Assembly (NCBI GenBank): GCA_947378425.1 | Contig: CANCJV010000019.1 | Location: 1 to 64,000, forward strand | From: Synechococcaceae cyanobacterium | Lineage (GTDB): Bacteria > Cyanobacteriota > Cyanobacteriia > PCC-6307 > Cyanobiaceae | Reading direction: 5' to 3' | Length of the DNA: 64,000 nucleotides | Shown: one piece after another, positions 5,550 to 49,555 of the stretch | Position numbering within the stretch: position 1 is the stretch's first letter | Layout: each line of letters opens with the position of its first letter | Position numbers and translations under genes: made by a program | The notes under the pieces: model-generated | Seen by the model: the letters and a program-made list of their open reading frames with translations, nothing else | Told to the model about the DNA's origin: nothing | The model's database searches: none

Positions 5550-6116
5550 ATGAGCATCGAGCCCACGCCGACCGTCACCCCTGGCCCTGAACAGGAACTC
5601 GAACTCAGGCAGTGGATTCAGGAGCACCCCGACTTCCCCAAGCCGGGCATCCTGTTCCGCTGCATGATGCCGATGCTGCGCGATCCGCAGGGCTGGCAGG
5701 AGATGGTGCGGCAGATGGGTGGAATCTGCGAGCGGCTGCAACCGGATCTGATTGTGGGCATCGAATCGCGCGGTTTCATCGTCGGCACGGCGCTGGCGAC
5801 GGCCCTGTCGCTGCCGTTCGCGCCGGTGCGCAAACGCGGCAAGCTGCCCGGGGCGGTGCATGGCGTCGACTACACCCTGGAATACGGCAGTGACCGGCTG
5901 GAGATCCATGTCGATGGCTTTGAACAGCAGCCTTCAGTTCTGGTGGTCGACGATCTGCTGGCCACTGGTGGCACCGCCGCCGCCGCCGGGGAGCTGGTGA
6001 CGCTGGCGGGGGGGAGCCTCTGCGGCTTTGCCTTCGTGATCGAACTGGCTGAGCTCAACGGCCGCCGGAAGTTGCCGGCCGGAGTGCCCGTGGAGTCGCT
6101 GGTGGTCTACACCTGA
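5550..6116 (+). CDS. apt: Adenine phosphoribosyltransferase
   Basis: Converts adenine and PRPP to AMP plus pyrophosphate (purine salvage, cytosol). 188 residues. The PRPP-binding loop [18 protein letters not shown] is at about residues 130-147. The upstream part carries [14 protein letters not shown] and the substrate-side [14 protein letters not shown] typical of Apt (PDFPKPGI...F.D, ESRGF). It lacks the usual D at the end of the PGI..RD motif (CMMP instead). The start ATG 5550 fits; the N-terminal ~20 residues are an extension. It stands alone, convergent with the DUF2949 gene 12 bases downstream. Confidence 0.92.
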
Positions 6117-6128
6117 AAGCCAGAGGCC

Positions 6129-6344
6129 TCAGGGCCGCTGATCCTGCCAGTCGAGCACCTGGCCCAGCTGCTCCAGGGTGATCAGCCCGTAGCGCCAGAG
6201 CACCACGGGCAGGGGGGCCTGCTCGAGCTGGGACTGCTTGAGGCCCAGATCCAGGGCGCTGTCGCTGAGGCCGATCTGATGGCGCAGATACTGCAGCAGC
6301 GCTGCCGGCGGCAGGGACTGGGGGGAGGAGCTGATCACCATCAT
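6129..6344 (-). CDS. DUF2949 domain protein
   Basis: About 71 residues from the ATG pair at 6344/6341. The longer frame to 6407 overlaps the upstream FAD hydroxylase. The body LLQYLRHQIGLSDSALDLGL then VVLWRYGLITLEQLGQVLDW fits the small helical DUF2949 family of cyanobacteria. Function unknown. It lies 34 bases downstream of the hydroxylase stop, same strand, so it is probably co-transcribed. Confidence 0.7.
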   Translation of the reverse strand: MMVISSSPQSLPPAALLQYLRHQIGLSDSALDLGLKQSQLEQAPLPVVLWRYGLITLEQLGQVLDWQDQRP

Positions 6345-6378
6345 CCCGGCTGTGATCGCCACAGGCTGAGCCGACCTT

Positions 6379-7587
6379 TCACTCTGGCGGGCTGCCCTGG
6401 ATCGCACAAGGGCCGCTGGTCATCACGGCCAGGGCGAGGCGCCGCAGCGGCCGGAAGCGGGCCAGCAGGCCCAGGGCCAGGCGGCGCAGCGGCAGCAGGG
6501 CCGGGAAGCGGTTCGAGAAGATCCGAACCATCAGATCGGTGACCAGCAGGGTGAGCAGCAGATCGGGCCAGCGGCGGCGCCCGTAGGCGGCGCCCAGGCG
6601 GCGGGGATCGAGCTCCCCGCGGGCGGCCCTGCGGGCCAGACGGTGCAGCACCGCCACATCGCGCCAGCAGAGATTGAGGCCCTGGCCGCCGACCGGATGG
6701 CAGCGATGGGCGCTCTCTCCCACCAGCAGGGTGCCCTGGCGATGCAGGCGATGGGCAATCAGCAGCTCCACTGCAAAGGCCCGGGGTTGATCGAGCAGGG
6801 CATCGGGCTGGAAGCGATCCGGCAACACCCCCGCCAGGCGATCGAGGAAGGCACCGGCCGAGAGGCTTTCCAGCTGGCGGCAGCGGGCAGCGGGGGCACT
6901 CCAGACCAGCTGGAAGCGACCCTCGGCCAACGGCAGGACCGCAAAGGGGCCTTCCGGTCGCAACAACTCCCAGGCCTGGTGCTCCCCTGCCCCCCGCAGG
7001 GCCACGGCCGCCGTCAGGCAGGCCTGCCCATAGGAACGGCGCCAGCAGCCGATGCCGAGGCGGCGGCGCGTGGGCGAATCGGGTCCATCGGCAGCAATCA
7101 CCAGATCGACCGGCCGCTCCACCGCCGGTTCGGGTCTCGCTTGCGGGCCCAGCTGCAGGCTGACGGAGGCCGAGCCCTGCAGGCACCGCAGCAGCACGGT
7201 CATCAAGTCGTCGTGGCGACCGATCCAGCCGATGGCGGGAGAGGCGCAACGGGCCTGGCGTGGCGCCAGATCGGCCAGGCCGAAGGCCAGCGATTGCTCC
7301 GCGCCCAGATCCCAGAGCTGGAGCTCGTCAAAGGGAATGAGCCGGGGCTCGATCAGCGACCAGAGATGCAGGCGTTCCAGCAACACGCGGCTGGACTGGC
7401 TGAAGGCGTAGGCCCGCTGGCGTCGGCATAGGGCCTCGGCGTCGAGGGGATCGCAGAGTTCCACCGCCCAACCTGCATCCACCAGGGCCAGGGCCGCCAG
7501 GGCGCCGGTGGCGCCTGCACCCAGCACCCTGGCGACGAGGCCACCGGCGGGAGCCCGGCGAACGGACCGGGGGGGAGCGGCAACCAC
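6379..7587 (-). CDS. FAD-dependent hydroxylase of the UbiH/UbiF type
   Basis: Aromatic-ring hydroxylase family, likely in quinone or related aromatic metabolism. Seen: the dinucleotide-binding VLGAGATGALAALAL near the N-terminus, the DG motif VIAADGPDSPTRRRLGIG, and the GD-like motif GESAHRCHPVGGQGLNLCWRD. The longest frame reaches 7728, but a rho-independent terminator for the upstream hli gene lies inside it (7616-7649). I therefore start at GTG 7587 (VVAAPPRSV), giving ~402 residues, the usual length. Cyanobacterial plastoquinone and tocopherol pathways use related enzymes; the substrate is not decided by sequence. Confidence 0.8.
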   Translation of the reverse strand: MVAAPPRSVRRAPAGGLVARVLGAGATGALAALALVDAGWAVELCDPLDAEALCRRQRAYAFSQSSRVLLERLHLWSLIEPRLIPFDELQLWDLGAEQSLAFGLADLAPRQARCASPAIGWIGRHDDLMTVLLRCLQGSASVSLQLGPQARPEPAVERPVDLVIAADGPDSPTRRRLGIGCWRRSYGQACLTAAVALRGAGEHQAWELLRPEGPFAVLPLAEGRFQLVWSAPAARCRQLESLSAGAFLDRLAGVLPDRFQPDALLDQPRAFAVELLIAHRLHRQGTLLVGESAHRCHPVGGQGLNLCWRDVAVLHRLARRAARGELDPRRLGAAYGRRRWPDLLLTLLVTDLMVRIFSNRFPALLPLRRLALGLLARFRPLRRLALAVMTSGPCAIQGSPPE

Positions 7588-7615
7588 GGACGGGGAGGAG
7601 ACGAAGGTCGGGGGC

Positions 7616-7649
7616 AAACACAAAAAGCCGCAACAGAAACTGCTGCGGC
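7616..7649 (-). terminator. Rho-independent terminator of the hli gene
   Basis: On the minus strand GCCGCAGCAG and TGTTGCGGC form a 10-bp stem with one mismatch and a three-base loop, followed at once by TTTTTGTGTTT. It sits about 100 bases past the stop of the Hli gene and just upstream of the hydroxylase, so it ends hli transcription and helps to set the hydroxylase start. Confidence 0.8.
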
Positions 7650-7745
7650 GCGATGGGTTGAGGGTCGGCTCACAGCCGGGTTGAAAGAGCTCGCCCTGAA
7701 CGGGTCGCCACCCTCCGGGGCGCTCCATTCAGGGCCGGGCCGGAT

Positions 7746-8015
7746 TCAGCCGATGCCGAGCAGACCGCGGGTGAAGGCTTCGCCGCCCAGGGCGAATTCG
7801 GTGGCCAGCAGGGCGATGAAGCCGAGCATGGCCATACGGCCGTTCAGCTTTTCGGCGCGCACATGGAAGCCCCAGCCGCTCTCGGCACTCACGACTTCCA
7901 TGCGGGGCTCGGTGGCGAAGGCATTGAGGCGGCCGCCGTCTTCGGTGGTGACGGTGGCACCACGGATCGTCGCGGAAGCGGCAGCGGTGGGGGCGGTGGT
8001 AGTGGCTTGAGCCAT
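7746..8015 (-). CDS. High-light-inducible / chlorophyll a/b-binding-like protein (HLIP)
   Basis: 89 residues from ATG 8015 (MAQATTTAP). The chlorophyll-binding helix reads [20 protein letters not shown], with the ELIP/HLIP signature ExxNGRxAMxG, and ends shortly after in a glycine-rich tail. HLIPs are single-helix thylakoid proteins that bind chlorophyll and carotenoid, protect photosystem II under excess light and assist chlorophyll-protein assembly. The N-terminal soluble stretch of ~50 residues makes this a longer family member. A good terminator follows. The upstream 550-base gene-free region may carry its stress-responsive promoter. Confidence 0.92.
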
Positions 8016-8569
8016 GGAGAACCTTGCGGTGTGTGAAGTGACTGTAACGCAATGTTGCGGGTTTTGGCGCAAGCTGCTCGCAATCCGCTGATTCAAGGTG
8101 CAGAACCCTTCCCGCTACTGGCCTGGCCTCCCATTGGGCCCAGGTGGGCCGCGGGGGGGCAGGTCACGGAGCCCGCACCTGGGGCACCGGATCTCGGGGT
8201 CCGGACCGCGATCGCGGGCTCTTCCCGTTCCCATTCCCCCGGCTCCTGCGACCTGGAATCTGCGGGCTCCCATGGCGTTGGCGGTTCGAGCGCCTGTGCG
8301 CCTTCGCCGCCTGTATCCCGCCCAGCTCAGGCCGAACGCCGCTCTGCCGCGCAGCAAAGGCCTGCAGGCCCACCCGACCACCGGCGCCGCCGCTCCAGGT
8401 TTTCAGGCGATGAGGTCGATCACGCCGTGATGGGGCGAGACCCCCCAGGTCTCTCCTGCCGGTTCTCGCTCTCACGGGTTGGCGCCCGGCGGCTCAGGAG
8501 CGGTGGAGCCTTCTGGATTGGGAAGCGGTTTCACGTCGCTGCCAGCACCAGCTCCAGATCGATGCCACT
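8016..8569. other. Gene-free region upstream of hli
   Basis: About 550 bases between the divergent hli start and the stop of the next minus-strand gene. Several short overlapping ORFs exist in the GC-rich sequence, but they are Pro/Arg/Ala-rich in all frames and show no motif. I see no strong hairpin or repeat. It presumably holds the hli promoter and leader. Confidence 0.45.
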
Positions 8570-36797: not shown

Positions 36798-36859
36798 CGT
36801 TGATTTGTCTCCTCTGGGTGACGCCCTGGCTGGATAGAGCCTGGAGCGCCGATCAAAGC

Positions 36860-37216
36860 CTACGTTTCTGTCGCGGACTTGTGGTCGACGATGTTGAAAC
36901 GGATACCCAGTTCGCTACAGAAAGCTTCTTGCTTGTCGAATAAGACAGTTTTCAGGATAACCAACAGGTCATATTATCCGCCTGGATGCTCCACCTTTTG
37001 GCCCATGCGTGTCGTTGGATTTAATCCGATCCATAGGACCCACTTGCCACCTTCAGGTCTTGTGCCAATACCAGACAGCGGCCGGACCTCAGCCTTTGAG
37101 ATTGCGTCAACTGAGGAGCGGCCATGGGTGAGTCCCTCGAGACCTTCTGGTACTTCGATAAGACAACGCCGTGCTTTCTCTTGCGCACACGCAAGTGTGA
37201 AATTCAACTCTCGCAT
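36860..37216 (-). pseudogene. Hypothetical gene interrupted by one in-frame stop
   Basis: From ATG 37216 the frame reads MRELNFTLACAQEKARRCL and RPEGGKWVLWIGLNPTTRMG up to a TAA at 36974-36976. Past that stop, the same frame continues as convincing protein (YDLLVILKTVLFDKQEAF, GIRFNIVDHKSATET) to a TAG at 36860. No frameshift is needed: one stop codon splits a ~118-residue gene. I do not recognise the family. It could be a recent pseudogene or, less likely, a readthrough case. Confidence 0.6.
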
Positions 37217-37423
37217 GTGCAACACTGAGTATTGTATCTACATGGCACAAATCAGTGCCTGCTCACTCCAGGCTTGCGCGACTACTGGCTAACCAAGCCA
37301 TTTTCAGAGGAATCAAAGTGGCAAGGCAGTGCATTAGAACATACCCAGAAGACTGGAGGAAGCGTGGCTATTCAAATGGCTTGCAGCAAGACTCCCCGGC
37401 TGAAGTGCTAGGTGTGAGGACAG

Positions 37424-38275
37424 CTACTTGCCAGAGGGTCTGTCCAGAAGCTCGCGATAACCCTTAAGCAATTCATTGTATGTCGTGGCCATGACCTTTT
37501 GGTGCGCTTCATCTTGCTCGAGGAGATGAATCAGTCTTTGATCGAGCCTATCCTGCTGCTTGTCAACCGAGTAAATCAGCAGAAAAGCCCCAAGAAGTGC
37601 CGCAAATGATGGCACAACCAGAGAGGTATTGGCCAGTATCCACATCCATTCGGCACGACGCAAGGCCAGAGACGGCAGACTTTGACGTTGATTATTTTGG
37701 GCTTGGAGAGAATTAAACGTTTTTCTGATTGTAGAATCTGGTTTTAAAGTATACTCGGCAGATCCTTCCCATTCGCCAAAGGTTGCCAAGAAAGCCTCCG
37801 GGATGTATTGATCCAGGAAGAACTCGAAAGCCTCGTAGCTACCATCGAATAGTTTTGCAAGGAATTCTAGGCTCGATATGTCAACCCCAAAGACAAGACT
37901 GGAATACCGCCTGATTCTTGCCTTGAATAAGATTCTAGGGAGAAGTCGGGCGTAATCTTGTTCTTGTTGAGCATCACCGCGTAGCTTGCCTGAAGTATTT
38001 CTGAGAGTCTGCCCGCCATGTTCACTCGAATAATTTATTAGGAAGTGCTTAACAAGAAGAGCGTGGAGTTCAAGGCCAAATTTCTGTTCCAGCATCACCT
38101 CAAGCTGCCTCGTGGTCTTCTCTTTGACGTCGGCTACGCCATATCCGGAGGTTGCCCTGAGGTATGCCCAGAATTGCTCCCGCTTCGTTGACTCACCATT
38201 CGGTTCGTTGATTTCTTGTTGATTTTGACTCCCTTCCAGGAGATCAACCTTCACCTCGATGGATGCTAATTGCAT
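37424..38275 (-). CDS. Hypothetical membrane-anchored protein
   Basis: 283 residues. The N-terminal ~205 are soluble and charged (EQFWAYLRATSGYGVADVK, LEVMLEQKFGLELHALLVKHFL). One hydrophobic segment near 215-240 (WILANTSLVVPSFAALLGAFLLIY) is followed by a helical tail (QDRLDQRLIHLLEQDEAHQKV) that may form a coiled coil. So the bulk is probably cytosolic with a C-terminal anchor. No family recognised. Lower GC than the core genes, consistent with transfer. Confidence 0.6.
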   Translation of the reverse strand: MQLASIEVKVDLLEGSQNQQEINEPNGESTKREQFWAYLRATSGYGVADVKEKTTRQLEVMLEQKFGLELHALLVKHFLINYSSEHGGQTLRNTSGKLRGDAQQEQDYARLLPRILFKARIRRYSSLVFGVDISSLEFLAKLFDGSYEAFEFFLDQYIPEAFLATFGEWEGSAEYTLKPDSTIRKTFNSLQAQNNQRQSLPSLALRRAEWMWILANTSLVVPSFAALLGAFLLIYSVDKQQDRLDQRLIHLLEQDEAHQKVMATTYNELLKGYRELLDRPSGK

Positions 38276-38699
38276 GGTGTTTGACCGAATAAGATGATCT
38301 TTACCCTTGTCGCTATGTCATGGGCTAGTCCTGTAAATCACGCCATCAGTACGTTGGTCCATTCGTCAACAAGCCAGAGTGAAGCTGCGGATCTGAACCT
38401 GATCTCAGAGCTGGAAGCTGCTCAGGCTAATCGATGCAACGTTCACCATTAGCAGTGATTTACACATCTGAGTACCACAGCTTGATGCAGATCAGGATCT
38501 CATTAACCTCATGCTGGAATGCAAAGACCGATTCAAAGGATCCGGCGGGGTTGACTGTATAGCCATGTATCGTAGTCCAAAGATTCGTTGCCAATCTTGG
38601 TTCGTAGTTGCGCTGACTCGTAGGTTGAAAAGTATGGGAACGACAGGCTGAGTTGGCTCATCCTGAATTTCCATTCATTCATTTCAGTGAGTTTTCACT
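38276..38699. other. Gene-free region upstream of the MNIO operon
   Basis: 424 bases between divergent genes. I see no convincing ORF, hairpin or repeat. It must hold the promoter of the operon beginning at 38700 and of the minus-strand gene. Confidence 0.4.
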
Positions 38700-38957
38700 A
38701 TGACCACCGCAGAATCCAATGTTCAGCGCAAAGCACAGATCTTTATTGGCGGAAAGGAATCTAATCGGGCGGTAAGGGTTCAGCATCCTGGTAAGCTGAC
38801 GCCAGAAGATATCAAGGCAATCGACGAGATTCTGGTTAACAAGGTTATCAAGGATCTTACTGGTTGCTCGTGTCTCTCGGGAATCATTGACGTTATTTGG
38901 GAAAGAAACTTTGAGCGAGTTATCGATGTAAAGCTTGGTGCCCCTTTTAGAGGATGA
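38700..38957 (+). CDS. Small protein with CSC motif upstream of a DUF692 enzyme; candidate precursor or partner
   Basis: 85 residues. Its only two cysteines are Cys56 and Cys58 in DLTGCSCLSGIIDVIW, two thirds along. The first half is hydrophilic (QIFIGGKESNRAVRVQHPG, then a helix LTPEDIKAIDEILVNKVIK). The stop codon overlaps the start of the DUF692 gene (ATGA), so it is translated together with it. Known MNIO systems place a small Cys-containing precursor gene next to the enzyme and modify its cysteines, so I infer a possible substrate. The predicted globular look and mid-chain cysteines also allow a helper protein. I do not recognise the family. Confidence 0.7.
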   Translation: MTTAESNVQRKAQIFIGGKESNRAVRVQHPGKLTPEDIKAIDEILVNKVIKDLTGCSCLSGIIDVIWERNFERVIDVKLGAPFRG

Positions 38958-39838
38958 AACCACTGGTTGGTCTCCTATACAATCCAGCGATTCCGGGGGT
39001 GCTTGATGCCATTGGCTCAAAAGTTGACCATATCGAAGTGGTGCCAGATCGGCTTTGGTTTGATAACGGCTTCGGTTCCCCCAATCGTTTCAGCTTGGCA
39101 ACTGAGGCCATCCATGAGCTCAAGCGTTGCTGCGAAGGTCGCCAGGTGATCGGTCATGGCATTGGTCTGTCCTTGCCAAGCGCAATGCCTCTTGATGAGG
39201 CCTTGCTTCAACAAGTAGCCGACATTCATCAACTGTTGGATTTTAGTTGGTACAGTGAGCATCTCAGTATGTTCCTTGTACCAGGAAGATCGGTCCCGAA
39301 CGCCCAGGCTGGCCTTGGCTTGCCCGTCCTCATGAATCAAGAAGTTCTGGGAATTATGGAAGCTAAGATTATTCGAATGAAAGAAGTTTTGATGACAGAT
39401 ATACTGCTTGAGAATCCAACGATATTCACTGAGGTTCCCGATCAGCAATTGACGGAACCCGAGTTATTTGGAGTATTGCATGCTAGAACCGGGAGCGGAG
39501 TGTTGCTTGATCTTCACAACCTCTATGCAAATACCATAAATTTGGGTATTTCAGCCCATGCTTACTTGCAGCAGCTCAACCCAGAACTCGTGTATGAGAT
39601 CCACTTAGCGGGTGGGGATCGCTTGCATGGCTTTCATACGGACTCCCACTCACAGCTCACCCCCATGAAAGTTTGGGAATGGGCTTACGAGTGGATGCCA
39701 CGTTTCAAGAACCTTAGAGCGATTACATTTGAGTATCATGAGTCATATCACTATCGCTTTGGCATTAACGGTATCTCTGAGGAGCTGGATCGCATGCATG
39801 CGTTGGCTGAGGAGTCTGTGAACTGCTTTGGTGGTTGA
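38954..39838 (+). CDS. DUF692 / multinuclear non-haem iron oxidase (MNIO)
   Basis: 294 residues, usual length. TIM-barrel family that includes MbnB, TglH and ChrH, iron enzymes that oxidise cysteine or other side chains in ribosomal peptides. Likely metal-ligand segments are all here: H68 in GHGIGLSL, E102-H103 in SEHLS, E153-N154 in LLENPT, D186-H188-N189 in LLDLHNLY, E215-H217 in EIHLAG, D230-H232 in HTDSH, and E260 in TFEYHE. The DLHN form differs from the usual D[VL]NN. Translation is coupled to the genes on both sides. Function inferred from family; substrate unknown. Confidence 0.88.
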   Translation: MKPLVGLLYNPAIPGVLDAIGSKVDHIEVVPDRLWFDNGFGSPNRFSLATEAIHELKRCCEGRQVIGHGIGLSLPSAMPLDEALLQQVADIHQLLDFSWYSEHLSMFLVPGRSVPNAQAGLGLPVLMNQEVLGIMEAKIIRMKEVLMTDILLENPTIFTEVPDQQLTEPELFGVLHARTGSGVLLDLHNLYANTINLGISAHAYLQQLNPELVYEIHLAGGDRLHGFHTDSHSQLTPMKVWEWAYEWMPRFKNLRAITFEYHESYHYRFGINGISEELDRMHALAEESVNCFGG

Positions 39839-40279
39839 GTGAAAATCATGCTTATCGACTTTCAACGCGCTCTGGCTGATCTGACAGCTTCGCCAGAATT
39901 AACGCAGAAAATAAGGATCGACCCTATTGATCTTCGCGAACGATACGAGCTAGATGATCAAGAGTTTCATCAACTGGTCGCCATCGTTCAAAGTCCAGGC
40001 ATGAGAGCCAACTGCATCCTCTACCGAGCCAATCGCCTAGCACCCATCGCTATCAACCTTCCAGAAACGTGCCGCCTGCTCGGTGATCGGCTTGAAGAAT
40101 TAGTCTCCGAATACTGGCGCTCGCAACCGATCACAAATGTTCATTTTTTAGTGGAGACAGATTTGTTCTGTAAATTTCTTCATTCGCAAGAGATTCCTGG
40201 TAAGGCTGCCAGAGCACTTCGGAACGAATCCGCTCTGGTACAAGCCAAAATTAATTATAGCCGAATTGAAAGACGATGA
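39839..40279 (+). CDS. HvfC/DUF2063-like MNIO partner protein
   Basis: 146 residues from GTG 39839, which directly follows the MNIO stop (an ATG lies at 39848). The first part (FQRALADLTASPELTQKIRIDP, then LRERYELDDQEFHQLVAI) is like the helical LigA/DUF2063-type N-terminus. CILYRANRLAPIAINLPETCRLLGDRLEELVSEYW resembles the HvfC pattern YR.N......L...FP....LLG..F..L...Y (quoted here only as pattern). Such partners bind the precursor and present it to the MNIO. The match is from memory and moderate. Its tail is basic and AT-richer. Confidence 0.65.
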   Translation: MKIMLIDFQRALADLTASPELTQKIRIDPIDLRERYELDDQEFHQLVAIVQSPGMRANCILYRANRLAPIAINLPETCRLLGDRLEELVSEYWRSQPITNVHFLVETDLFCKFLHSQEIPGKAARALRNESALVQAKINYSRIERR

Positions 40280-40303
40280 AGCTGGCCTTGCCATCTGTTT
40301 CGA

Positions 40304-40516
40304 TCAGTCTAGCCTGAGAGCCTTTTTATTGCTGAAGCTTCTTTTCACTTGTTGTTCCATAATCGTATTGCATTGATAGGCTTCAGGCCTGGCTCCGAGA
40401 ATGATCCTTATGTCCATAGCTTGCTTCCCGCTATTTTCCAGTCCCAGCACCGTCATCTCCGAGAGGCTTGAGTGGTGGGGTGGTTGATGTACCTCAAGAA
40501 AAAGATTGTCTTTCAA
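40304..40516 (-). CDS. Possible small hypothetical protein
   Basis: 70 residues from a TTG at 40516, convergent with the MNIO operon. EMTVLGLENSGKQAMDIRII reads like beta strands, and codon choice is even, but there is no known motif and the start is weak. The remainder of 40280-40780 holds no other feature I can support. Confidence 0.3.
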   Translation of the reverse strand: MKDNLFLEVHQPPHHSSLSEMTVLGLENSGKQAMDIRIILGARPEAYQCNTIMEQQVKRSFSNKKALRLD

Positions 40517-40780
40517 TCCTCAGAGGTATTCGTGATTGGATGCGTTGCACGTGCTTTGAGCTGGCTTGAATTCTTGCCATGGATGCTCAGTCCGCAACGT
40601 TGGGGTACTTAGAGGCGTCGTCTGGAACAAGCCTAGGGATGAGCAGGCCACTGATCTTCCCCTTCTTCTCTCCATACTCTCTGCCTGGCAGACAGGGACT
40701 GGGTTAGTCGGATCCGTGGGCGACTCCATGAGATGGCTGCAACACTACGTCAGAAAGCGAATGTGGCTCGATGCTCTATC

Positions 40781-41810
40781 TTAATTGCCCAGCTCACTCC
40801 GCGCAGGGCGGGCTGGGCGCATAGGCTGGTACGCATATACCAGTCTGGTCGTGTCGCGCAGTGCCATCCAGTTCCGCAAGGGCCTCTCCCTGCCTGAATT
40901 CCAGCGGCTCTACGGAGCCGAGGGGGCAATGCGAGGCTGCTCTGGAGAAGGCCCGCTGGCCTCATGGGTTCCGGTGTCCGCGTTGCCAAGGCCACGAGCA
41001 TGGGCTGGTCTATGGCCGGTGGCTCAAGCGTTATCAGTGCCGTACCTGCGGCCATCAGGCCATCCTCACGGCCGGCACCGATCATGCAGGCCGCCAAGTT
41101 GCCGCTGACAGCCTGGTTGCTGGCTTTCTATCTGATTGGCCAGGCCAAAACCGGGATCTCCTCGCTGAAGCTCTGCCGTCACCTGGGCATCAACTACGCC
41201 ACGGCCTGGCTGCTGCACAACAAGATCCTGCACGCAATGACTGAGCGGGAGGAGGCTTACCTGCTGCTGGGAAAGATCCAGATGGATGATGCCTACCTCG
41301 TCGGAGAACTGCAGGCCGGCAAGCCGGGTCGGGGATCAGAGGACAAGATTCCGATCGTCGCAGCCGTCTCCTTGAACGAGGCTGGCCATCCGATTCACGC
41401 CAGGATCACAGCCGGGAGCGGCTTCAGCTCAGAAGCGATCTCCGACTGGGCCAAACGCCACCTCGCGCCCGGCAGCCATGTTCTCTCTGATGGACTGGCT
41501 TGCTTTCGTGCCGTGACCACGGCCAACTACCACCACAAGGCTGTCGTCACCGGCGGTAAGCACCCCAACGATCTGCCGCAGTTCCGCTGGATCAACACCC
41601 TGCTGGGCAACCTCAAGACCAGCTTCAGCGGCACCTTCCACGCCTTCAACTTTGACAAGTACGCCAGGCGCTACCTAGGCGGCCACTGCTTCCGATTCAA
41701 CCGTTGTTTCTCGATGGCTGGGATGACCGTATGGATCGCCAATGCGGTCTGCTGCTGCATGCTGCTCACAGAACTGGATCTCAGGGTCGCGGAGGATTAT
41801 GGGTAATCAC
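40781..41810 (+). mobile_element. IS1595-family insertion sequence, inactive
   Basis: About 1030 bases. The ends are imperfect inverted repeats: 40781-40803 (TTAATTGCCCAG...CTCCGCG) matches the reverse complement of 41788-41810 at about 15 of 23 positions, with blocks ATT-CCCA and CTCCGCG shared. It contains one transposase gene broken by two frameshifts. I could not define a target-site duplication, so the borders are approximate. Confidence 0.6.
40851..41806 (+). pseudogene. IS1595 / ISXO2-like transposase, two frameshifts
   Basis: Three frames make up one protein. The first gives SAIQFRKGLSLPEFQRLYG; after a shift at the G run near 40920 the second gives QCEAALEKARWPHGFRCPRC and RYQCRTCGHQAI, the zinc ribbon (CPxC...CxxC). 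A one-base insertion near 41081 moves into the third: KLCRHLGINYATAWLLHNKI, KIQMDDAYLVGE (first catalytic D) and SHVLSDGLACF (second D). The ISXO2-like DDE domain is otherwise complete to the TAA at 41806. Decay is therefore recent. Confidence 0.88.
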
Positions 41811-41984
41811 GTGCTCTATTGATTGATTGCTACAGCACGCGCTGTTTCCCAGGTGCCTGAGGGGCCTGTTGCTCATAACAAGCCAGGACTTGGGCAAGGA
41901 CGAGATCAACCCATGGGTTGAAAGATGAAATGGCAGCCTACAGTTAAGAATAGATTTAGTCGCGATTGTGTGAGAAGATTCTGA

Positions 41985-42662
41985 TTAGCGGGTTAGCCAT
42001 AGGGCTTGGCCGCCAAGGTGATCATTTTTCGTCGTGTTGATATCAATATTGATGCCATGCACTGTGGCATCAATTGTTGATTGGATCATCTGAAAGCCCC
42101 GGATAGCCACGTCTGGTACAAAGCTTGGCGATTTCCAGTAATGTTGGCAGCTTAATGAATGAAAGAGCTGATCTCCGGTAAGCAATTCGTCAAAGCCTAA
42201 GTAGATGCCAGGGACATAGCCTACTGCGCTAACTTGTGCAAACCAATTATTGCAATAATCTATGATGTCGATGGCGGGTGTGCCAACGAGAACACCTTCA
42301 AGATCTAGCCAGATATTAATCCCAGCGGGTAGTCCTGCGAAGATTGCATTGTTTGCGGCGTGGTTGCCAGTCTGAGTTCCCTTGGATGCTGTAGGCACCC
42401 ACCCCGGATTCCTGACATGTTGGACTGCCATGAGTGCTAGTCCTGAATCCAGAATATCATCCGCCTCCTTTCGGGTAAGGTCGCCATCATTCACTTCATC
42501 GTCTTTCGAAAAAAGAGAGAGATATCTAATGCAAAAGCTATATCCGTCAGCTTTGAAGTGATTGGCAACTGCTCTAGACACAATACTGCTTGTATCAAAT
42601 CCTTTGGAGTTGGCCGGTGCTTTTCCGATTGCTCCCACAAGTGTAGCCATTTTGATGCTCAT
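41985..42662 (-). CDS. DUF1906 (Rv2525c-like glycoside-hydrolase-like) protein
   Basis: 225 residues. SKGFDTSSIVSRAVANHFKA, GLPAGINIWLDLEGVL, FAQVSAVGYVPGIYLGFDEL and KNDHLGGQALWL fit DUF1906, a TIM-barrel glycosidase-like family found in phage endolysin contexts and secreted actinobacterial proteins. No signal peptide is visible. D/E pairs in the LDLEGV segment could be catalytic. Its substrate is unknown; cell-wall glycan is a reasonable guess from the family. Start ATG 42662 or 42650. Confidence 0.8.
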   Translation of the reverse strand: MSIKMATLVGAIGKAPANSKGFDTSSIVSRAVANHFKADGYSFCIRYLSLFSKDDEVNDGDLTRKEADDILDSGLALMAVQHVRNPGWVPTASKGTQTGNHAANNAIFAGLPAGINIWLDLEGVLVGTPAIDIIDYCNNWFAQVSAVGYVPGIYLGFDELLTGDQLFHSLSCQHYWKSPSFVPDVAIRGFQMIQSTIDATVHGINIDINTTKNDHLGGQALWLTR

Positions 42663-43092
42663 AGGGTGGTATACTCAATTGTTGTCCATGTTTTATGGCT
42701 CCGACAACTACGTGAACATATTTTTACACTCTTACAGCGATTGCCAGGCTCGGCCAAGCCTGCTTTGCATCCGGTCGTTTGCCGCTGGCTGCTGCCATGA
42801 TGTCCAGCGTTGCCCTTGAGTTGCAGGCAGAAAATGTACAATGGACGCCAAAGTCCTTGCCAGTCTGTCCACTCGAGGGGTTGGTTGGATTGGCTTTCTA
42901 GAGGTGATTAAAGGTATCCACCCTAGGCTGCGATTGTAGATTATCATGAGCGCGGCTGGCTCACAGGCCAACCAAAGCAGTTTTTCTCCGCAAAGCTTCC
43001 AGCTGCACTTTCTATTGCGTCAAAATGAGTACTAGGGGGTCTCTATGTGGTCACAGAGGTCTGAATTAATCCTTCGGCATCTGAAGGGGCGA
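42663..43092. other. Gene-free region
   Basis: 430 bases between two minus-strand genes. Short ORFs on both strands show no motif. I see no hairpin or repeat worth naming; it should carry the DUF1906 gene's promoter. Confidence 0.4.
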
Positions 43093-44076
43093 CTAGCCGG
43101 ATGCCGACTGATCGCCAAGCTTCCGCTTGGCATTCTCGATCATCATCGTTAAGGGACCTGATCTCTGTGGATAAATCTGGAGGATAAAGCGAATAAGATC
43201 ATCAGGCGTGCAGGGCTTGGCATATCCACCATTCCATCCATGAAACTGCTCATGCACTTCTGCGCTGAGCGTGATGAGGTTGTCAACACTCTCGGCAAGA
43301 TGCCTGTAATGCTGTTTGGAATAAAGATGATGAGCAACCAAGACAATCTTATCGTCTTTTACTCTTCTTTTCTCAGTTAGTAAGCAGGTCTTCTTGTCGC
43401 GTTGTTTGGCCAACTCACACGCCCTTGTAATTCTCGCCTGCCTCTGATCCTCGGCGCTGGCTAGCATCTTGATTGTCTTGTTACCAGTCATCTTGACTGC
43501 CTGGCACCATAGCTGCCGCTCCTTCGAGGTCAGCTTGCTACCAAGATCCTCGGCCATGCGGCTGACACCTCGTATTGAGTAGAAACGCTTGCCCTCTTCG
43601 TCAAGAAAGTCAACGTTTTGCCTCATCTTACTTGCGGCTTGCAGCTCCTGAAACGAACGATTCAGGCGAGCTGGGCTGGTACCAAGGATCTTGGTTGTAT
43701 CGGGTTTTGAAAGGAAGTGGCGCTTAGATCTCAGAATCAGAGATGAACTATTCTGAACAATATGTGCTGCGACTAGTGATTCTCTGATGCGGGTCTTGTG
43801 TCTTGTCACAAACTCAAGAAAATTCTCCCAGAAAGAGCTTGGCTTAGTGGATCGGATATATTCAGCTATGGCGTGAGCTCCCCGGAGTGAAAATATCCTC
43901 TCACCCAGACTCTTGTTGACGAATATAAAGTGTTCCCCCTCTGCAAGCTCCCACAGATCGTCAGGATCTGAATCGAAGTGTGCCACAATCTCGTCAAGCT
44001 CGTCTTTTGATATCTCCAGGCACTTGGCCACAGCTACTTCTGTTAACGAAAAACCATTGTAGGCAACTTTGGACAT
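43093..44076 (-). CDS. HNH-endonuclease-like protein
   Basis: 327 residues from ATG 44076 (MSKVAYNGFSL), with GGAGG about ten bases upstream; a TTG at 44085 overlaps the previous gene. The N-terminal ~210 residues include two repeats of a KilA-N/Bro-like feel (EHFIFVNKSLGERIFSLRGA and VDFLDEEGKRFYSIRGVSRM). The C-terminal ~70 residues look like an HNH nuclease: Cys, then VAHHLYSKQHYRHLAESVDN and LITLSAEVHEQFHGW (HH, N, H). Nuclease activity is inferred. Encoded with a J-domain protein. The repeats being DNA-binding is a guess. Confidence 0.72.
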   Translation of the reverse strand: MSKVAYNGFSLTEVAVAKCLEISKDELDEIVAHFDSDPDDLWELAEGEHFIFVNKSLGERIFSLRGAHAIAEYIRSTKPSSFWENFLEFVTRHKTRIRESLVAAHIVQNSSSLILRSKRHFLSKPDTTKILGTSPARLNRSFQELQAASKMRQNVDFLDEEGKRFYSIRGVSRMAEDLGSKLTSKERQLWCQAVKMTGNKTIKMLASAEDQRQARITRACELAKQRDKKTCLLTEKRRVKDDKIVLVAHHLYSKQHYRHLAESVDNLITLSAEVHEQFHGWNGGYAKPCTPDDLIRFILQIYPQRSGPLTMMIENAKRKLGDQSASG

Positions 44077-44081
44077 AATCC

Positions 44082-44675
44082 TCAAGCCTCCGCGCTGATG
44101 CTGGCGTACATATTCCTGATGAGATCAAATATTTTAGCGTCTCCTGTCTCTTTGTTGTCAGGGTGATAAACTTTGCTTAGCTCATGGTAGGCATCTTTTT
44201 TGCCCTGGTGTGTAGCCGTAGCCGGATCAAGGCCGAAGACACGCCATGGCCTAAAATACTGAAAAATATTCACTCCCTTAATACAGCCATAGCCTGTCTG
44301 AAACTCCTCGCCCGGGAGATAGCCAACAAACTCTCTGTAGAGCGTCTTCCACCCTTCGGCACTAGTAAGAGGTGGGAGATCCATGCCTTCTGTCTCCATC
44401 AGAAAACGAGAACTCTTGCGGAGGATGGTAGCCGTGCGTTTTTCGCCAACTCCAAAATAGTCAAAGATGGCCGCTTTGATTTCAGCAGACTTCAATGCCT
44501 TTGTCTTAACTGGCTTAGATTCTTTCTTTTTATGATTTGTGATTGCAAAACGCGCAAACTCCTCAAGAGTCCCCTGATTAATCTCCTGAAGGCTGAGGAT
44601 CCTGCGGATTTCAGTCAGAACAAATGAGTTGAGCTTGGCTGTTGTTACAGTGGTGTCCGTTGCAATAGAGGTCAT
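44082..44675 (-). CDS. Protein with C-terminal J-domain-like module
   Basis: 197 residues from ATG 44675 (MTSIATDTTVTTAKLNSF). The last ~50 residues read WRVFGLDPATATHQGKKDAY followed by HELSKVYHPDNKETGD and IFDLIRNMYASI, a J-domain pattern with the HPD tripeptide that activates Hsp70 ATPase. The N-terminal part is basic and helical (NHKKKESKPVKTKALKSAEI), unlike classic DnaJ, and no zinc or Gly/Phe region exists. It is the first gene of a pair with the HNH-like gene. J-domain activity is inferred from the HPD. Confidence 0.7.
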   Translation of the reverse strand: MTSIATDTTVTTAKLNSFVLTEIRRILSLQEINQGTLEEFARFAITNHKKKESKPVKTKALKSAEIKAAIFDYFGVGEKRTATILRKSSRFLMETEGMDLPPLTSAEGWKTLYREFVGYLPGEEFQTGYGCIKGVNIFQYFRPWRVFGLDPATATHQGKKDAYHELSKVYHPDNKETGDAKIFDLIRNMYASISAEA

Positions 44676-44965
44676 AGGCACTACTCTTGTGATGTCGCAT
44701 GTTTGCACTGTATATCACAATCTATTTAAACGGCCACAATCGTATCAATTTGGTTGCCAGGTCTGTAGGGCTGAAGGGGCAAGCATTTCAAGTGTGTACG
44801 CAAGCTGTGGAAGAGCCTGGAGGGGCTGTGCGCACAATTTAAGGGACTGTTGAGGTACTTTGATTCTGCTGAATGCTCATGATCAGCGGCTGGAAGATTA
44901 TTGCTGTATTCAAAAGCCATCCATGCTCCCAACCCCTGCATCTTGATGATAAGCTGTTAACAATA

Positions 44966-45705
44966 CTATCTTCTGAGGCGCGACACTTTCTGGGCCATAT
45001 GATACATTGACAAATGCAAAAGGGGCATCTCGCCACCTCATTTCTCTAAGAAATATTGCCTTAGGTCTGCAAGCAAAGCATTCCTCGTGCGGTGATCAAG
45101 CGCTAGGCAGGAGGAGTGCGTCGTGAGAAGAGCTATGTACTGATCACGCGTCTAGGTCAAAGAGGTTTCGACAGGTGCTGTAACCAGGTTTCGGAACCTG
45201 CCAGAGTCAATCATCATTTGGCCAAGGCTAACCAGAATGTCTTCTTGTGTTTGCCTGACTTCCTGTCGGGCAAGAGATGGCGCATATAGTTGGTATACAT
45301 CCAAAAGCGCCTTCTGCATTGCCTAGTAGGGCTGCAGCTCTTTGTTCCACAAGAGTGTAAAATAACCATCTTCTTTCAGTGTACGACTGACCTTCGCATG
45401 GCCAATTTCGGATGGGATCCAATGCATCGAGCTTGCCGCGAGAACGGCATCAATCGCTTCAGACTCCAAATCCCTTTCCTCAATGGGTTTGTTGATCACT
45501 TATGCCGATGAATGCGATTGGTAATTCATGTTTGCGTTTCGCAAAAGTCTTGATTGGGTTCAATGCAGACCATGTGACAGCCGAGTTCCGCTAAAGAGGC
45601 AGTTGCTGTTTCCGGGTCACTCCCAATTGCAAGAATTCTTGAGGACGAAGAAAGCGAGGCTGCGTTGAACGCCTTTCGAGCTAACGAGACCAAGGCCCCT
45701 TGTCA
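44966..45705 (-). pseudogene. Class I SAM-dependent methyltransferase pseudogene
   Basis: Fragments in order on the minus strand give ARKAFNAASLSSSSRILAIG followed by TASLAELGCHMVCIEPNQDF (motif I and the acidic beta-2 end). After a shift comes ESEAIDAVLAASSMHWIPSE and LKEDGYFTLLWNKELQPY, then a stop. The frame continues MQKALLDVYQLYAPSLARQE, SLGQMMIDSGRFRNLV, then another stop, DQYIALLTTHSSCLALDH, and finally a piece ending LSMYHMAQKVSRLRR. This is the normal layout of UbiE-like methyltransferases. Motif I is degraded (AIGSDPET for a GxGxG loop). At least one frameshift and three stops: non-functional. Confidence 0.85.
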
Positions 45706-45903
45706 ATAAAGTTATGCATGCATTGAGGTTGATCATCCGGTGCAGAGATTGCGATTTCGCGTGTAGAGGCAACCCGCAGTAGCCAAAGGCAATCCAAACA
45801 CTATGGCCATCACTTTGGCGCCCCGGTTCGTGATCTTGAGATCTTGGCTGCGGTGGGAGAAGGAGTGAAATTATGGATGAGAATTCCAGCGGCGTGGTGC
45901 TGC

Positions 45904-48504
45904 TCACTCACTGACCGCCTTGGTGCGCATCGCCGCCTCCAGGCTCTTGATGTCTGCAGGCGATAACTGGGGCCGATCAAGCTTGAGCGTGAGCTTGTTG
46001 AGCGTTCCCGTGAACCGGAACGGCGGCTGGTAGTCGGCGTCGTTGACGCCGGTAAGAGTATCGGAGCCGATGTCGAAGCTCTCGTCCCACTGCAGGATCA
46101 TCGGCAGGGTTTTGGCCATGGTTTTGGTGGCGACCACCTTCCCGTCCACCTTGAGGGTGCCGGTCCCAGGGCCGCCGACGCCGCTGAAGTTGTTGAAGGC
46201 CAGGGTGCCCGCCCCCTTGCCGTCGTAGACGAAATCGAACTCCACCTTGTGCTTGCCAGGAGAAAGCGGTTCAGCCCCCTCCCACTTGAGGCGCTCCAGA
46301 TCCACCATGTTCCACAGCCATATCGGCTTGCCGTTCTTCAGGTAGAAGCCGTAGCCCCCGAAGCGGCCGCCCGAGGTGAGCAGCATGCCCTCGGCGCCAC
46401 TGGCCGGCACAGTGATATCGGCGGTGACGGTATAGGAGGTGTTGAGCAACAAGGGCGAATCTCCCTGGGGCAGCCCCACCATCGGATGGGTGTAGGCGAA
46501 CGTGTTGCGGCCGGCGGTGATGTTCGGCCGTGGCGCCACGATGCGCGCCGCCACCGAGGCATCAAGCGGGAACACCTGGTATTTCTTTGCTTCGCTGATG
46601 AAGGCCTGCTTGAGTTCTTTCACCTTCTGCGGGTTCTTCGCGGCCAGGTCGGTGGTCTGGCTGAAGTCACGGTTGAGGTCGTACAACTCCAGAACCTGGT
46701 TGTTGAGCGGATCCGGGTTGGCCGGGCCGAAGGCGTCCCAGGGGGCTCGGTTCACCTTGGTGCTCAGCAACCAGCCATCGTTGTACATCGCCCACTGGCC
46801 GAACATCTCGAAGTACTGGGTTTTGTGGCGCGAGGGCACCTTGGCGTTCTTGGAGTCAAAGGTGTAAAGGAAGCTGGTGCCTTCGATCGGTTTCTGGGGG
46901 ATGCCATCCACCAACTCAGGCGCCCGCAGACCCGCGGCTTCGAGGATCGTCGGCACCACGTCGATGACATGAACGAACTGCTCACGTAAGCCGCCCTTGT
47001 CCTTGATGCGCGCCGGCCACGACACCACCATGTTCTGGTTCACGCCACCGAGCTTGGAGGCGTTCTGCTTGAACCAGCTGAAGGGGGTATCGAAAGCCCA
47101 GGACCAGCCTGCCGACATGTGGTTGTAGGTCTGATCGGTTCCCCACACGTCGTAGAACTTCATCTGAACTTCAACGGGCAGTTTGTTGAGGCCATTGAAG
47201 AAAGCCACCTCGTTGGGCGTGCCCAACGGTCCGCCTTCGGCGCTGGTGCCATTGTCGCCGTTGATGTAGATGATCAGCGTGTTGTCAAGCTTGCCAAGGT
47301 CTTCGAACTGCTGAATTACCCGGCCGATCTCAGCATCGCTGTAGGCGGCGTAGGCGGCAAACACCTCCACCTGGCGGATGAACAGTTTCTGGGCTTCCGG
47401 GCTCAACTTGTCCCAGGGGGTGATCAGCTCGGCGGGCCAGGGTTCCAGCTTGGCGTCCTTGCCAATCACGCCGAGTTTTTTCTGATTCGCGAAAATACGC
47501 TCCCTCAGTTTCTCGTAGCCGTCATCAAACAGGTGCATGGCGTGGATCTTGTCCACCCACTCCTGGGTGGGGTGGTGGGGCGCATGGGTGGCCCCGGGGG
47601 CGTACTTGATGAATAGCGGCTTGCTGGGGTTGGTCTGGTGCATCCGCGTCATGTAGTCGATGGCGTCATCGGCCATCGCCGTCACCAGATTCCAGCTGCC
47701 GGGAGCCTTGCCTTCGAAGGGATAGATCTGGGTGGTGTTGCGGAACAGGTTCGGCTGCCACTGGTTGGCGTCACCGCCCACGAAGCCGTAGAAGTATTCG
47801 AAGCCCATGCCGGTGGGCCACTGATCAAACGGCCCGCTCTGACTGGCCTGGAAGGCGGGCACGTTGTGGTCCTTGCCGAACCAGGCGGTGCTGTAGCCGT
47901 TGTCCTTGAGCAGGCGGCCGATCGTGGCCTTGTCGCGCTCGATGATGCTGTTGTACCCGGGGAAGCCCGTGGACTGTTCCGAGATCACCCCAAATCCTGC
48001 CGAGTGGTGGTTGCGGCCGGTGATCAGGGCGGCCCTAGTGGGGGAACACAGCGCCGTGGAGAACATGCGGTTGTAACGCAGTCCATTTCTGGCAACACGG
48101 TCCATCGCCGGCGTGGGGATCACGCCGCCAAAGGTGCTGGGCACGCCGAAACCGGCGTCGTCAGTGATGATCAGCAGCACGTTGGGGGCCGCTGGCGGAG
48201 GCACGATCCGGGGCGCCCACCAGGGCGTGGACTGCAGGGCCTCGTCCTTGATCGCACCGCCAAAGGGGGGAGCCGGGGCCGGTAGCTGGTTGCCGCTGAG
48301 CGTGGTGGTGGCATTGGCAGCTCCCGGCGTGCCGGTGATCGTCTGGGCCAACACGGGCGCCCAGCCCGCCTGCCAGCCCACCAGCAGGGTCACCAGGACC
48401 AGGGCCCCAAGGCGTCGCAGCAGGCCGGGGACTCCGCTCGCCCCGAACCAGCCGCGAATGTTCCGGACCAAGGTGAACAGAGTGTCGGAGTGGGGATCAG
48501 CCAC
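45904..48504 (-). CDS. Arylsulfatase-type sulfatase (formylglycine enzyme)
   Basis: Hydrolyses sulfate esters; exported. I prefer GTG 48504, which overlaps the FGE stop (GTGGCTGA); an ATG at 48561 would give 885 residues. The N-terminal ~50 residues include a hydrophobic signal/anchor (LGALVLVTLLVGWQAGWAPVLA). The metal site begins NVLLIITDDAGFG and the sulfatase signature is TALCSPTRAALITGRNHH, in which Cys of CSPTR becomes formylglycine. Later HAPHHPTQEW and GDNGTSAEGG supply further metal ligands. A C-terminal beta domain ends KLTLKLDRPQLSPADIK. All catalytic residues are present. Co-encoded with its own activating enzyme. Confidence 0.93.
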   Translation of the reverse strand: MADPHSDTLFTLVRNIRGWFGASGVPGLLRRLGALVLVTLLVGWQAGWAPVLAQTITGTPGAANATTTLSGNQLPAPAPPFGGAIKDEALQSTPWWAPRIVPPPAAPNVLLIITDDAGFGVPSTFGGVIPTPAMDRVARNGLRYNRMFSTALCSPTRAALITGRNHHSAGFGVISEQSTGFPGYNSIIERDKATIGRLLKDNGYSTAWFGKDHNVPAFQASQSGPFDQWPTGMGFEYFYGFVGGDANQWQPNLFRNTTQIYPFEGKAPGSWNLVTAMADDAIDYMTRMHQTNPSKPLFIKYAPGATHAPHHPTQEWVDKIHAMHLFDDGYEKLRERIFANQKKLGVIGKDAKLEPWPAELITPWDKLSPEAQKLFIRQVEVFAAYAAYSDAEIGRVIQQFEDLGKLDNTLIIYINGDNGTSAEGGPLGTPNEVAFFNGLNKLPVEVQMKFYDVWGTDQTYNHMSAGWSWAFDTPFSWFKQNASKLGGVNQNMVVSWPARIKDKGGLREQFVHVIDVVPTILEAAGLRAPELVDGIPQKPIEGTSFLYTFDSKNAKVPSRHKTQYFEMFGQWAMYNDGWLLSTKVNRAPWDAFGPANPDPLNNQVLELYDLNRDFSQTTDLAAKNPQKVKELKQAFISEAKKYQVFPLDASVAARIVAPRPNITAGRNTFAYTHPMVGLPQGDSPLLLNTSYTVTADITVPASGAEGMLLTSGGRFGGYGFYLKNGKPIWLWNMVDLERLKWEGAEPLSPGKHKVEFDFVYDGKGAGTLAFNNFSGVGGPGTGTLKVDGKVVATKTMAKTLPMILQWDESFDIGSDTLTGVNDADYQPPFRFTGTLNKLTLKLDRPQLSPADIKSLEAAMRTKAVSE

Positions 48505-49555
48505 GGACGGGGAGGGCGGTGGTGAGGGCGGAGAGGGTGCCGGTGGCGGCTGGGGCTGCAATGGGGGCAGCCAGGCGGAAGCCGATGTGGGAGGTGCCGG
48601 TATCGGGGCTCTGGGCCTCCCGGGCTGCCGGCCGGTAGCGGCTGCAGTAGTTCTCGGAACAGAGGAACGAGCCCCCCTTGATCACATGCTTGGCGACGCC
48701 CGGATCACGGGGATCGCCCGTCGCCGCTTCGCTGCTGACCATCGGATCGCTGCCATCGGCGAGGGGCCCGTGGCCCACGGCATACCAATCCTGGGTCCAT
48801 TCCCAGACGTTGCCGGTCATGTCGAACAAGCCGTAACCGTTGACTCGGAAGGAACCGACGGGCGCAGTTCCTGAATAGCCATCTTCGGCAGTGTTGCTGC
48901 TTGGAAACAGGCCCTGCCAGGTGTTTGCACTGCGTGAGTTCCAGGTGTTGCCCCAGGCAAAGACGCGATCCTTCAGCCCCCCCCGGGCCGCGAATTCCCA
49001 CTGGGCTTCGCTGGGCAGGGACCCACCGGCCCAGCGGGCGAAGACCTCGGCGTCCTCATAGGCCACCTGCACCACCGGGTGCTGGCCTCGCCCGGCCAGA
49101 TCGCTGCCGGGACCCTCGGGATGGCGCCAGTCGGCCCCTGGAACCCAGTGCCACCAGCTGAGCTCCTCGATCGGCCCGCTTTCCGGCACGGGCTGGAACA
49201 CCAGCGAACCAGGGGCACGCTCGCTGACCTTCAGATCAGGGAACTGTTCGACAGACAGGGGCCGTTCCGCCACCGTGACATAACCGGTGGCCGCCACGAA
49301 GGCCGCGAAACGGTCATTGCTGACCTCCGTGCGGTCCAGACAGAAGGGGCTGATCCGCAGGCTGCGAACCGGCTGTTCCTCAGGCAGCTGTGCCCCGGCG
49401 CCGATGCGGTAGCTGCCGCCGGGAACGAGGGCCATCCCCTCGGGGCAATCCGAGGGGATGGCCCCGGCAGGGGGTGGGACCAGAAGCAGGAGGCCCACTA
49501 GCAGGATGGTCCCAAGGAAGCGGAGATGGAAACGCAGCATCAACCGAATTGACAC
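48497..49555 (-). CDS. Formylglycine-generating enzyme (FGE / SUMF1 family)
   Basis: Oxidises the sulfatase cysteine to formylglycine. 352 residues from GTG 49555 (ATG 49540 also possible). An N-terminal hydrophobic segment (TILLVGLLLLVPPPAGA) suggests export or membrane anchoring, matching an exported sulfatase. Family marks: MALVPGGSYRIG, LDRTEVSNDRFAAFVAATGY, LPSEAQWEFAARGG and GNVWEWTQDWY. The active-site pair Cys299/Cys304 lies in KGGSFLCSENYCSRYRPAAR, five apart as in human FGE (Cys336/341), so it is probably copper-dependent and active. Directly upstream of and overlapping the sulfatase gene. Confidence 0.94.
   Translation of the reverse strand: MSIRLMLRFHLRFLGTILLVGLLLLVPPPAGAIPSDCPEGMALVPGGSYRIGAGAQLPEEQPVRSLRISPFCLDRTEVSNDRFAAFVAATGYVTVAERPLSVEQFPDLKVSERAPGSLVFQPVPESGPIEELSWWHWVPGADWRHPEGPGSDLAGRGQHPVVQVAYEDAEVFARWAGGSLPSEAQWEFAARGGLKDRVFAWGNTWNSRSANTWQGLFPSSNTAEDGYSGTAPVGSFRVNGYGLFDMTGNVWEWTQDWYAVGHGPLADGSDPMVSSEAATGDPRDPGVAKHVIKGGSFLCSENYCSRYRPAAREAQSPDTGTSHIGFRLAAPIAAPAATGTLSALTTALPVRG

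Follow-up and report, generated by a model that had tools for sequence, protein, structure and literature searches.

A three-gene operon of a Synechococcaceae cyanobacterium, located in the 64,000-nt stretch of DNA analysed here (the window), is an uncharacterised variant of the MNIO-modified RiPP-type systems. We consider it probable that the operon encodes a self-contained maturation system of the MNIO type, in which the MNIO and a TglI-like partner act on a small protein by oxidising its C-x(1,2)-C-x-S-G loop. The ORF listing of the window shows three closely spaced genes, all on the + strand, i.e., a small substrate-type protein of 85 aa (38700-38957), an MNIO (DUF692, PF05114) of 294 aa (38954-39838) and a partner (39839-40279). 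The small gene is joined to the MNIO gene by an ATGA overlap (38954-38957), and the sole cysteines of its product, C56 and C58 (TGC TCG TGT, 38865-38873), lie in the motif C-S-C-L-S-G (residues 56-61, 38865-38882), the putative modification site as judged from its conservation in alignments. Both features had been reported in the first-pass annotation of this DNA and stand, as does the absence of an adjacent transporter or peptidase among the ORFs listed and scanned around the operon. The zero-base junction of MNIO and partner that it described depends on the start codon: it holds if the partner begins with the GTG at 39839 that follows the MNIO stop codon, TGA, without a gap (146 aa), and is replaced by a 9-base gap if the start is ATG at 39848 (143 aa). 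We favour the ATG as the likelier start because the members of the family begin with M-x-x-FQ. The small gene has homologues 59-62% identical in other phyla, with which its third codon positions are 31-35% identical vs 69-80% at positions 1 and 2; judged by this comparison, the small gene is under purifying selection and is a real coding gene.

The MNIO passes the Pfam model PF05114 with 151.4 bits against a gathering cut-off of 25. Its putative iron ligands, H68, H103, E153, D186, N189, H217, D230, H232 and E260, were matched through motif and spacing, rather than by superposition, to all nine ligands of TglH (H71, H107, E151, D184, N187, H216, D229, H231 and E258; PMC10880893), and they are kept in 33-34 of the 34 aligned MNIOs, which bears out the earlier assignment of a full set of likely iron ligands. 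The enzyme scores far below the cut-offs of the five NCBIfam equivalog models considered, i.e., BufB (129/310 bits), HvfB (94/360), ApyH (75/400), ChrH (45/600) and MbnB (22.5/325), among which BufB scores best. Some enzymes of the MNIO family act on Asp, Asn or Phe, not Cys.

The partner matches no Pfam or NCBIfam family, DUF2063 included, and the profile search that had been proposed for the 85-aa and 146-aa proteins returned no such family for either of them. Its AlphaFold2 model is confident (pLDDT 93.7), all helical and devoid of an RRE region. Foldseek by itself gave no significant match to the partner; after re-alignment of 371 Foldseek candidates with VIA-align, the top four chains, the only ones with Z of at least 5, were all MNIO partners. 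The scores were 9.2 over 85 residues for NGO1945 (3dee), 8.3 and 8.2 for TglI (residues 1-157; in the match with Z 8.3, 138 of the 146 partner residues against TglI 2-157) and 5.4 for MbnC, where a Z near 8 by itself can be weak for helical proteins. There is no counterpart of the RRE half of TglI, and relatives of the partner in Chitinophaga, Reyranella and others have an extra C-terminal stretch in the family alignment. The combination of a DUF2063 Pfam match and a fused RRE domain, which marks the PME-type 1 partners (HvfC/BufC), is absent; the helical fold without Pfam signature, encoded after the MNIO in relatives, is that of PME-type 2/TglI-like partners. On the strength of its model, the protein is therefore described here as similar to the TglI N-terminal domain and PME-type 2, in place of the HvfC-like label given to it before.

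Pfam and NCBIfam models recognise neither the small protein of the window nor the scanned relatives of the same folded form. An MNIO alignment scan yielded 46 relatives in named genomes, and in nearly all complete ones the MNIO is directly preceded by a gene for 70-96 aa with the C-x(1,2)-C-x-S-G motif; a profile search with the small protein recovered further upstream small genes at MNIO loci. The homologues span at least five phyla, i.e., Proteobacteria, Acidobacteriota, Bacteroidota, Verrucomicrobiota and Cyanobacteria. The motif is the only near-invariant part of the family in our alignments: its C, C, S and G are invariant in 20 core sequences, and C56, C58 and G61 remain so in 30 sequences that include divergent and GG-leader forms, with S60 kept in at least 90%. 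The suggested alignment of the C-S-C region thus found the cysteines conserved throughout, and C-S-C itself, correctly seen in the window, proved to be a form shortened by one residue of a wider C-x-x-C. The C-x-C spacing is confined to the clade of the window (with L013-L020), and C-x-x-C is found elsewhere. In all members, 20-38 residues separate the motif from the C-terminus, the segment behind the motif is conserved with a V-x-V-x-L/I pattern, and positions outside the motif are also kept. The small protein has neither a signal peptide nor a hydrophobic N-terminus. Its AlphaFold model is of low confidence (pLDDT 54.6) and could not serve for a fold search; the secondary structure, weakly predicted, has a beta-beta-alpha segment before the motif loop.

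A search of the viral collection found no relative of the small protein. Matches of the protein and its profile to PDB sequences were weak, mostly to designed helical proteins, and were not accepted; DUF3658 (E 0.1, below cut-off) was likewise rejected. Profile comparison relates a divergent branch with GC-x-x-C-x-SG-x-DIR to the small family (probability 96%, E 1.5e-9). This branch is represented by L079, L080, L081 and L084, where the MNIO lies directly downstream; in L079, L080 and L084 the MNIO frame runs for about 480-550 codons and is open at the locus edge, which suggests a fused extra domain. Another small protein, GCPHCCSGFDLDF, is encoded upstream of a distant MNIO (the latter about 26-27% identical) in a cyanobacterium of the same genus (L005:1157-1414).

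A single member of the small family, located upstream of the MNIO, is present in 19 of 21 operon genomes, and the other two have a short-peptide form. In 795 genomes sampled from the family of Sphingomonas, the order of Dyella and the family of Chitinophaga (299, 250 and 246 genomes), the family was matched in 6, 4 and 5 genomes. All 13 sampled matches with E <1e-3 have an MNIO directly downstream; 6 of these 13 had already come up in the MNIO scan, which leaves a small independent sample. Two loci of the Chitinophaga family without an MNIO (L085 and L086; E 0.0014 and 0.003) are chance matches and were rejected as members, the former being without the Cys motif and the latter antisense to a long ORF. 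As far as seen, the small family is rare and strictly linked to MNIOs; the gene-neighbourhood survey called for earlier found the small gene upstream of an MNIO at every significant match, and the occurrence without MNIO that would have spoken against a substrate was not encountered. When all ORFs of 120 aa or more surrounding 43 loci and those of the window were compared, only the MNIO and the partner, and ORFs antisense to them, recurred across 21 lineages, and no peptidase or transporter recurs beside the cassette. Because no other neighbour recurs, the cassette appears to act alone in most hosts; peptidases or transporters may act in trans.

On two branches of the MNIO tree, the small protein is replaced by a short peptide, mostly with a double-glycine leader. 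The first is represented by Synechococcaceae bacterium CE-Jul18-108, from the genus of the window, in which the same MNIO-partner pair is preceded by a precursor with such a leader (LNAEELEQINGG; L002:1136-1378 and L022:2101-2343); it carries SCITCVQG and has weak matches to bacteriocin leaders. On the second, Taibaiella (L047) and Bacteroidetes 43-16 (L050) encode a short upstream peptide with two copies of CPxCRSGF. The peptide of Taibaiella sp. KBW10, with two CPACRSG repeats (L047:3668-3892), has a possible double-glycine site (SIIGGDG) and an MNIO downstream; a C39-peptidase ABC transporter is encoded nearby (6084-8336), and the locus looks like a complete secreted RiPP cluster. In the MNIO tree, from which L081 is left out, L022 falls beside the clade of the window (100/100) on a long branch whose exact place is uncertain, and L047 and L050 fall inside Bacteroidota. 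The peptides of both branches keep C-x-x-C-x-[SQ]-G. Since the motif persists where the remainder of the precursor has been exchanged, and is duplicated in L047 and L050, it is best explained, as far as sequence comparison goes, as the site of enzyme action and not as a feature of a helper subunit.

The cassette has probably reached this genome from elsewhere. Its GC content is 47.7% vs 61.5% for the window, an IS1595/ISXO2-type transposase (40964-41806, + strand; PF12762, 103 bits) lies just downstream, the small family was not found in the other 59 relatives searched, and in the MNIO scan and tree the nearest MNIOs belong to Acetobacteraceae, Pyrinomonadaceae, Phenylobacterium and Sphingomonas; horizontal acquisition from other bacteria is therefore likely. 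The low-GC, gene-poor region 36800-45900, with genes for the IS1595 transposase, an HNH-domain protein, a DnaJ-like protein and an Rv2525c-like glycoside hydrolase, is a probable genomic island. Searches against plasmids gave no match to the operon DNA by distant blastn, and two weak matches (30-32%) to the MNIO protein. Beyond the region, at 45904-49555 on the - strand, an apparent arylsulfatase (recognised by eye) adjoins a homologue of the formylglycine-generating enzyme (FGE-sulfatase, 251.6 bits), its likely activator. That the cassette is a non-functional recent import in this cyanobacterium is very improbable: the deviating GC content, the nearby transposase and the absence from the other 59 relatives are what such an import would leave, yet the three frames are intact, ligands and motif are kept and purifying selection is visible on the small gene.

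For the proposed maturation system, we envisage that the TglI-like partner holds the MNIO and that the pair binds the small protein, whose C-x(1,2)-C-x-S-G loop would be oxidised at one cysteine or at both by means of the iron cluster and O2. The model follows the established MNIO biochemistry of TglHI, MbnBC and ChrH. As the partner is without an RRE domain, recognition would probably take place through the conserved N-terminal part of the small protein itself. The position of the loop behind the predicted beta-beta-alpha segment makes a carrier with a modified loop more plausible than a classical leader-plus-core peptide, a folded carrier being suggested by conservation and the weak secondary-structure prediction. 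With neither a transporter nor a peptidase beside the cassette, its product would probably remain an intact cytosolic protein, perhaps with a metal-binding or redox function. The chemistry may differ between the C-x-C clade of the window and the C-x-x-C branches. Going further, we tentatively propose a new oxidative modification, e.g., a Cys-derived heterocycle or a Cys-Cys crosslink, in a loop of a small folded protein of the cytosol, which would stay uncut and function, once modified, as a metal or redox protein, with the enzyme group twice redirected to secreted peptides that carry only the C-x-x-C-x-[SQ]-G loop; this fuller version could be true but is less likely than not.

Two other roles of the small protein have to be weighed. 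It could be a helper subunit of the MNIO, such as an iron or electron carrier or an assembly factor, with the substrate encoded elsewhere, as the first-pass annotation had also considered. The partly folded appearance given by the beta-beta-alpha prediction, the conserved positions outside the motif and the two cysteines, which could bind a metal or form a reversible disulfide, would suit such a subunit, but it is absent on two separate branches, where a short peptide with the same motif takes its place, and the motif duplication in L047 and L050 is typical of a modified core. We therefore regard a helper as unlikely. The substrate role proposed in the same annotation gains from the strict MNIO linkage, the invariant cysteines and the motif-keeping replacements, so far as sequences can tell. 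As in other RiPP systems, the precursor gene lies beside the modifying enzyme and encodes a conserved modifiable motif. The other alternative is a conventional RiPP, with a leader of about 55 residues and a core, from the CxC onwards, that would be cut free by a housekeeping protease or by a transporter-peptidase encoded elsewhere and then leave the cell. The short-peptide relatives, one of them near the C39-peptidase ABC transporter, suggest secretable products, and the position of the motif 20-38 residues from the C-terminus would fit a core; however, no peptidase or transporter recurs in the 21 lineages, the small protein has no hydrophobic N-terminus and the conserved segment behind the motif resembles part of a domain, which leaves the exported core about as unlikely as the helper.

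New enzyme chemistry is emerging rapidly from the MNIOs, and their reach beyond peptides into real proteins is at issue here. With three genes the cassette is minimal; it can pass between phyla and is built around one near-invariant site marked by natural swaps, and it should thus be an easy system for testing both the chemistry and RRE-free substrate recognition.

Compared with known systems, the operon shares its gene order with BufA/BufB/BufC and HvfABC; however, its precursor has only two Cys and lacks the Sec signal peptide, EGKCG, DUF2282 and the 6/12-Cys pattern of bufferins, and its partner lacks the DUF2063 Pfam match of BufC/HvfC. An ordinary bufferin-like operon (Cys precursor with an apparent signal sequence, MNIO and partner) is present in another genome of the genus (L007:987-2990). 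With TglA/TglH/TglI it shares the nine MNIO ligands and the N-terminal domain of TglI, whereas the C-terminal RRE domain and the tRNA-dependent C-terminal Cys scaffold are missing and the motif is internal (PMC10880893). ChrA is oxidised at the second Cys of its CPACGMG, which becomes crosslinked to the first one (PMC10214503), and cyanobacterial ChrH homologues modify proteins >30 kDa (PMC10214503, PMC12636315). The C-x-x-C followed at the third position by Gly, as in CPACRSG of Taibaiella and CPACTSG of Dyella, resembles this chryseobasin motif, but CPACGMG is C-terminal in most members, while the window has an internal C-S-C-L-S-G with C-x-C spacing; its MNIO reaches 45 bits against the ChrH cut-off of 600, and its partner looks soluble and helical, unlike the integral membrane protein ChrI. 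A Cys-Cys linked product, suggested by likeness to ChrA, is one option and a lead only, since the enzyme does not belong to the ChrH subfamily by score and the spacing in the window differs. The closest description is that of Antoine et al. 2025, whose main text presents small signal-peptide-less MNIO precursors, the "adjamnio" families, linked with PME-type 2 partners (PMC12452194), so that the novelty first suggested for the operon is in part anticipated. The adjamnio-7 precursors of that paper carry a CxxC motif and, like the small family, have no signal peptide and are encoded alongside an MNIO, whereas the small protein of the window has C-x-C; by these described traits the two may overlap. 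The main-text sections of that paper do not give the full C-x(1,2)-C-x-S-G motif, the range of taxa that have it or the swaps to short peptides, and our literature search found no description of the motif apart from the adjamnio groups. To these precursors our analysis adds a defined motif, strict linkage to the MNIO, an RRE-less partner in the clade of the window, a spread over several phyla and two short-peptide swaps.
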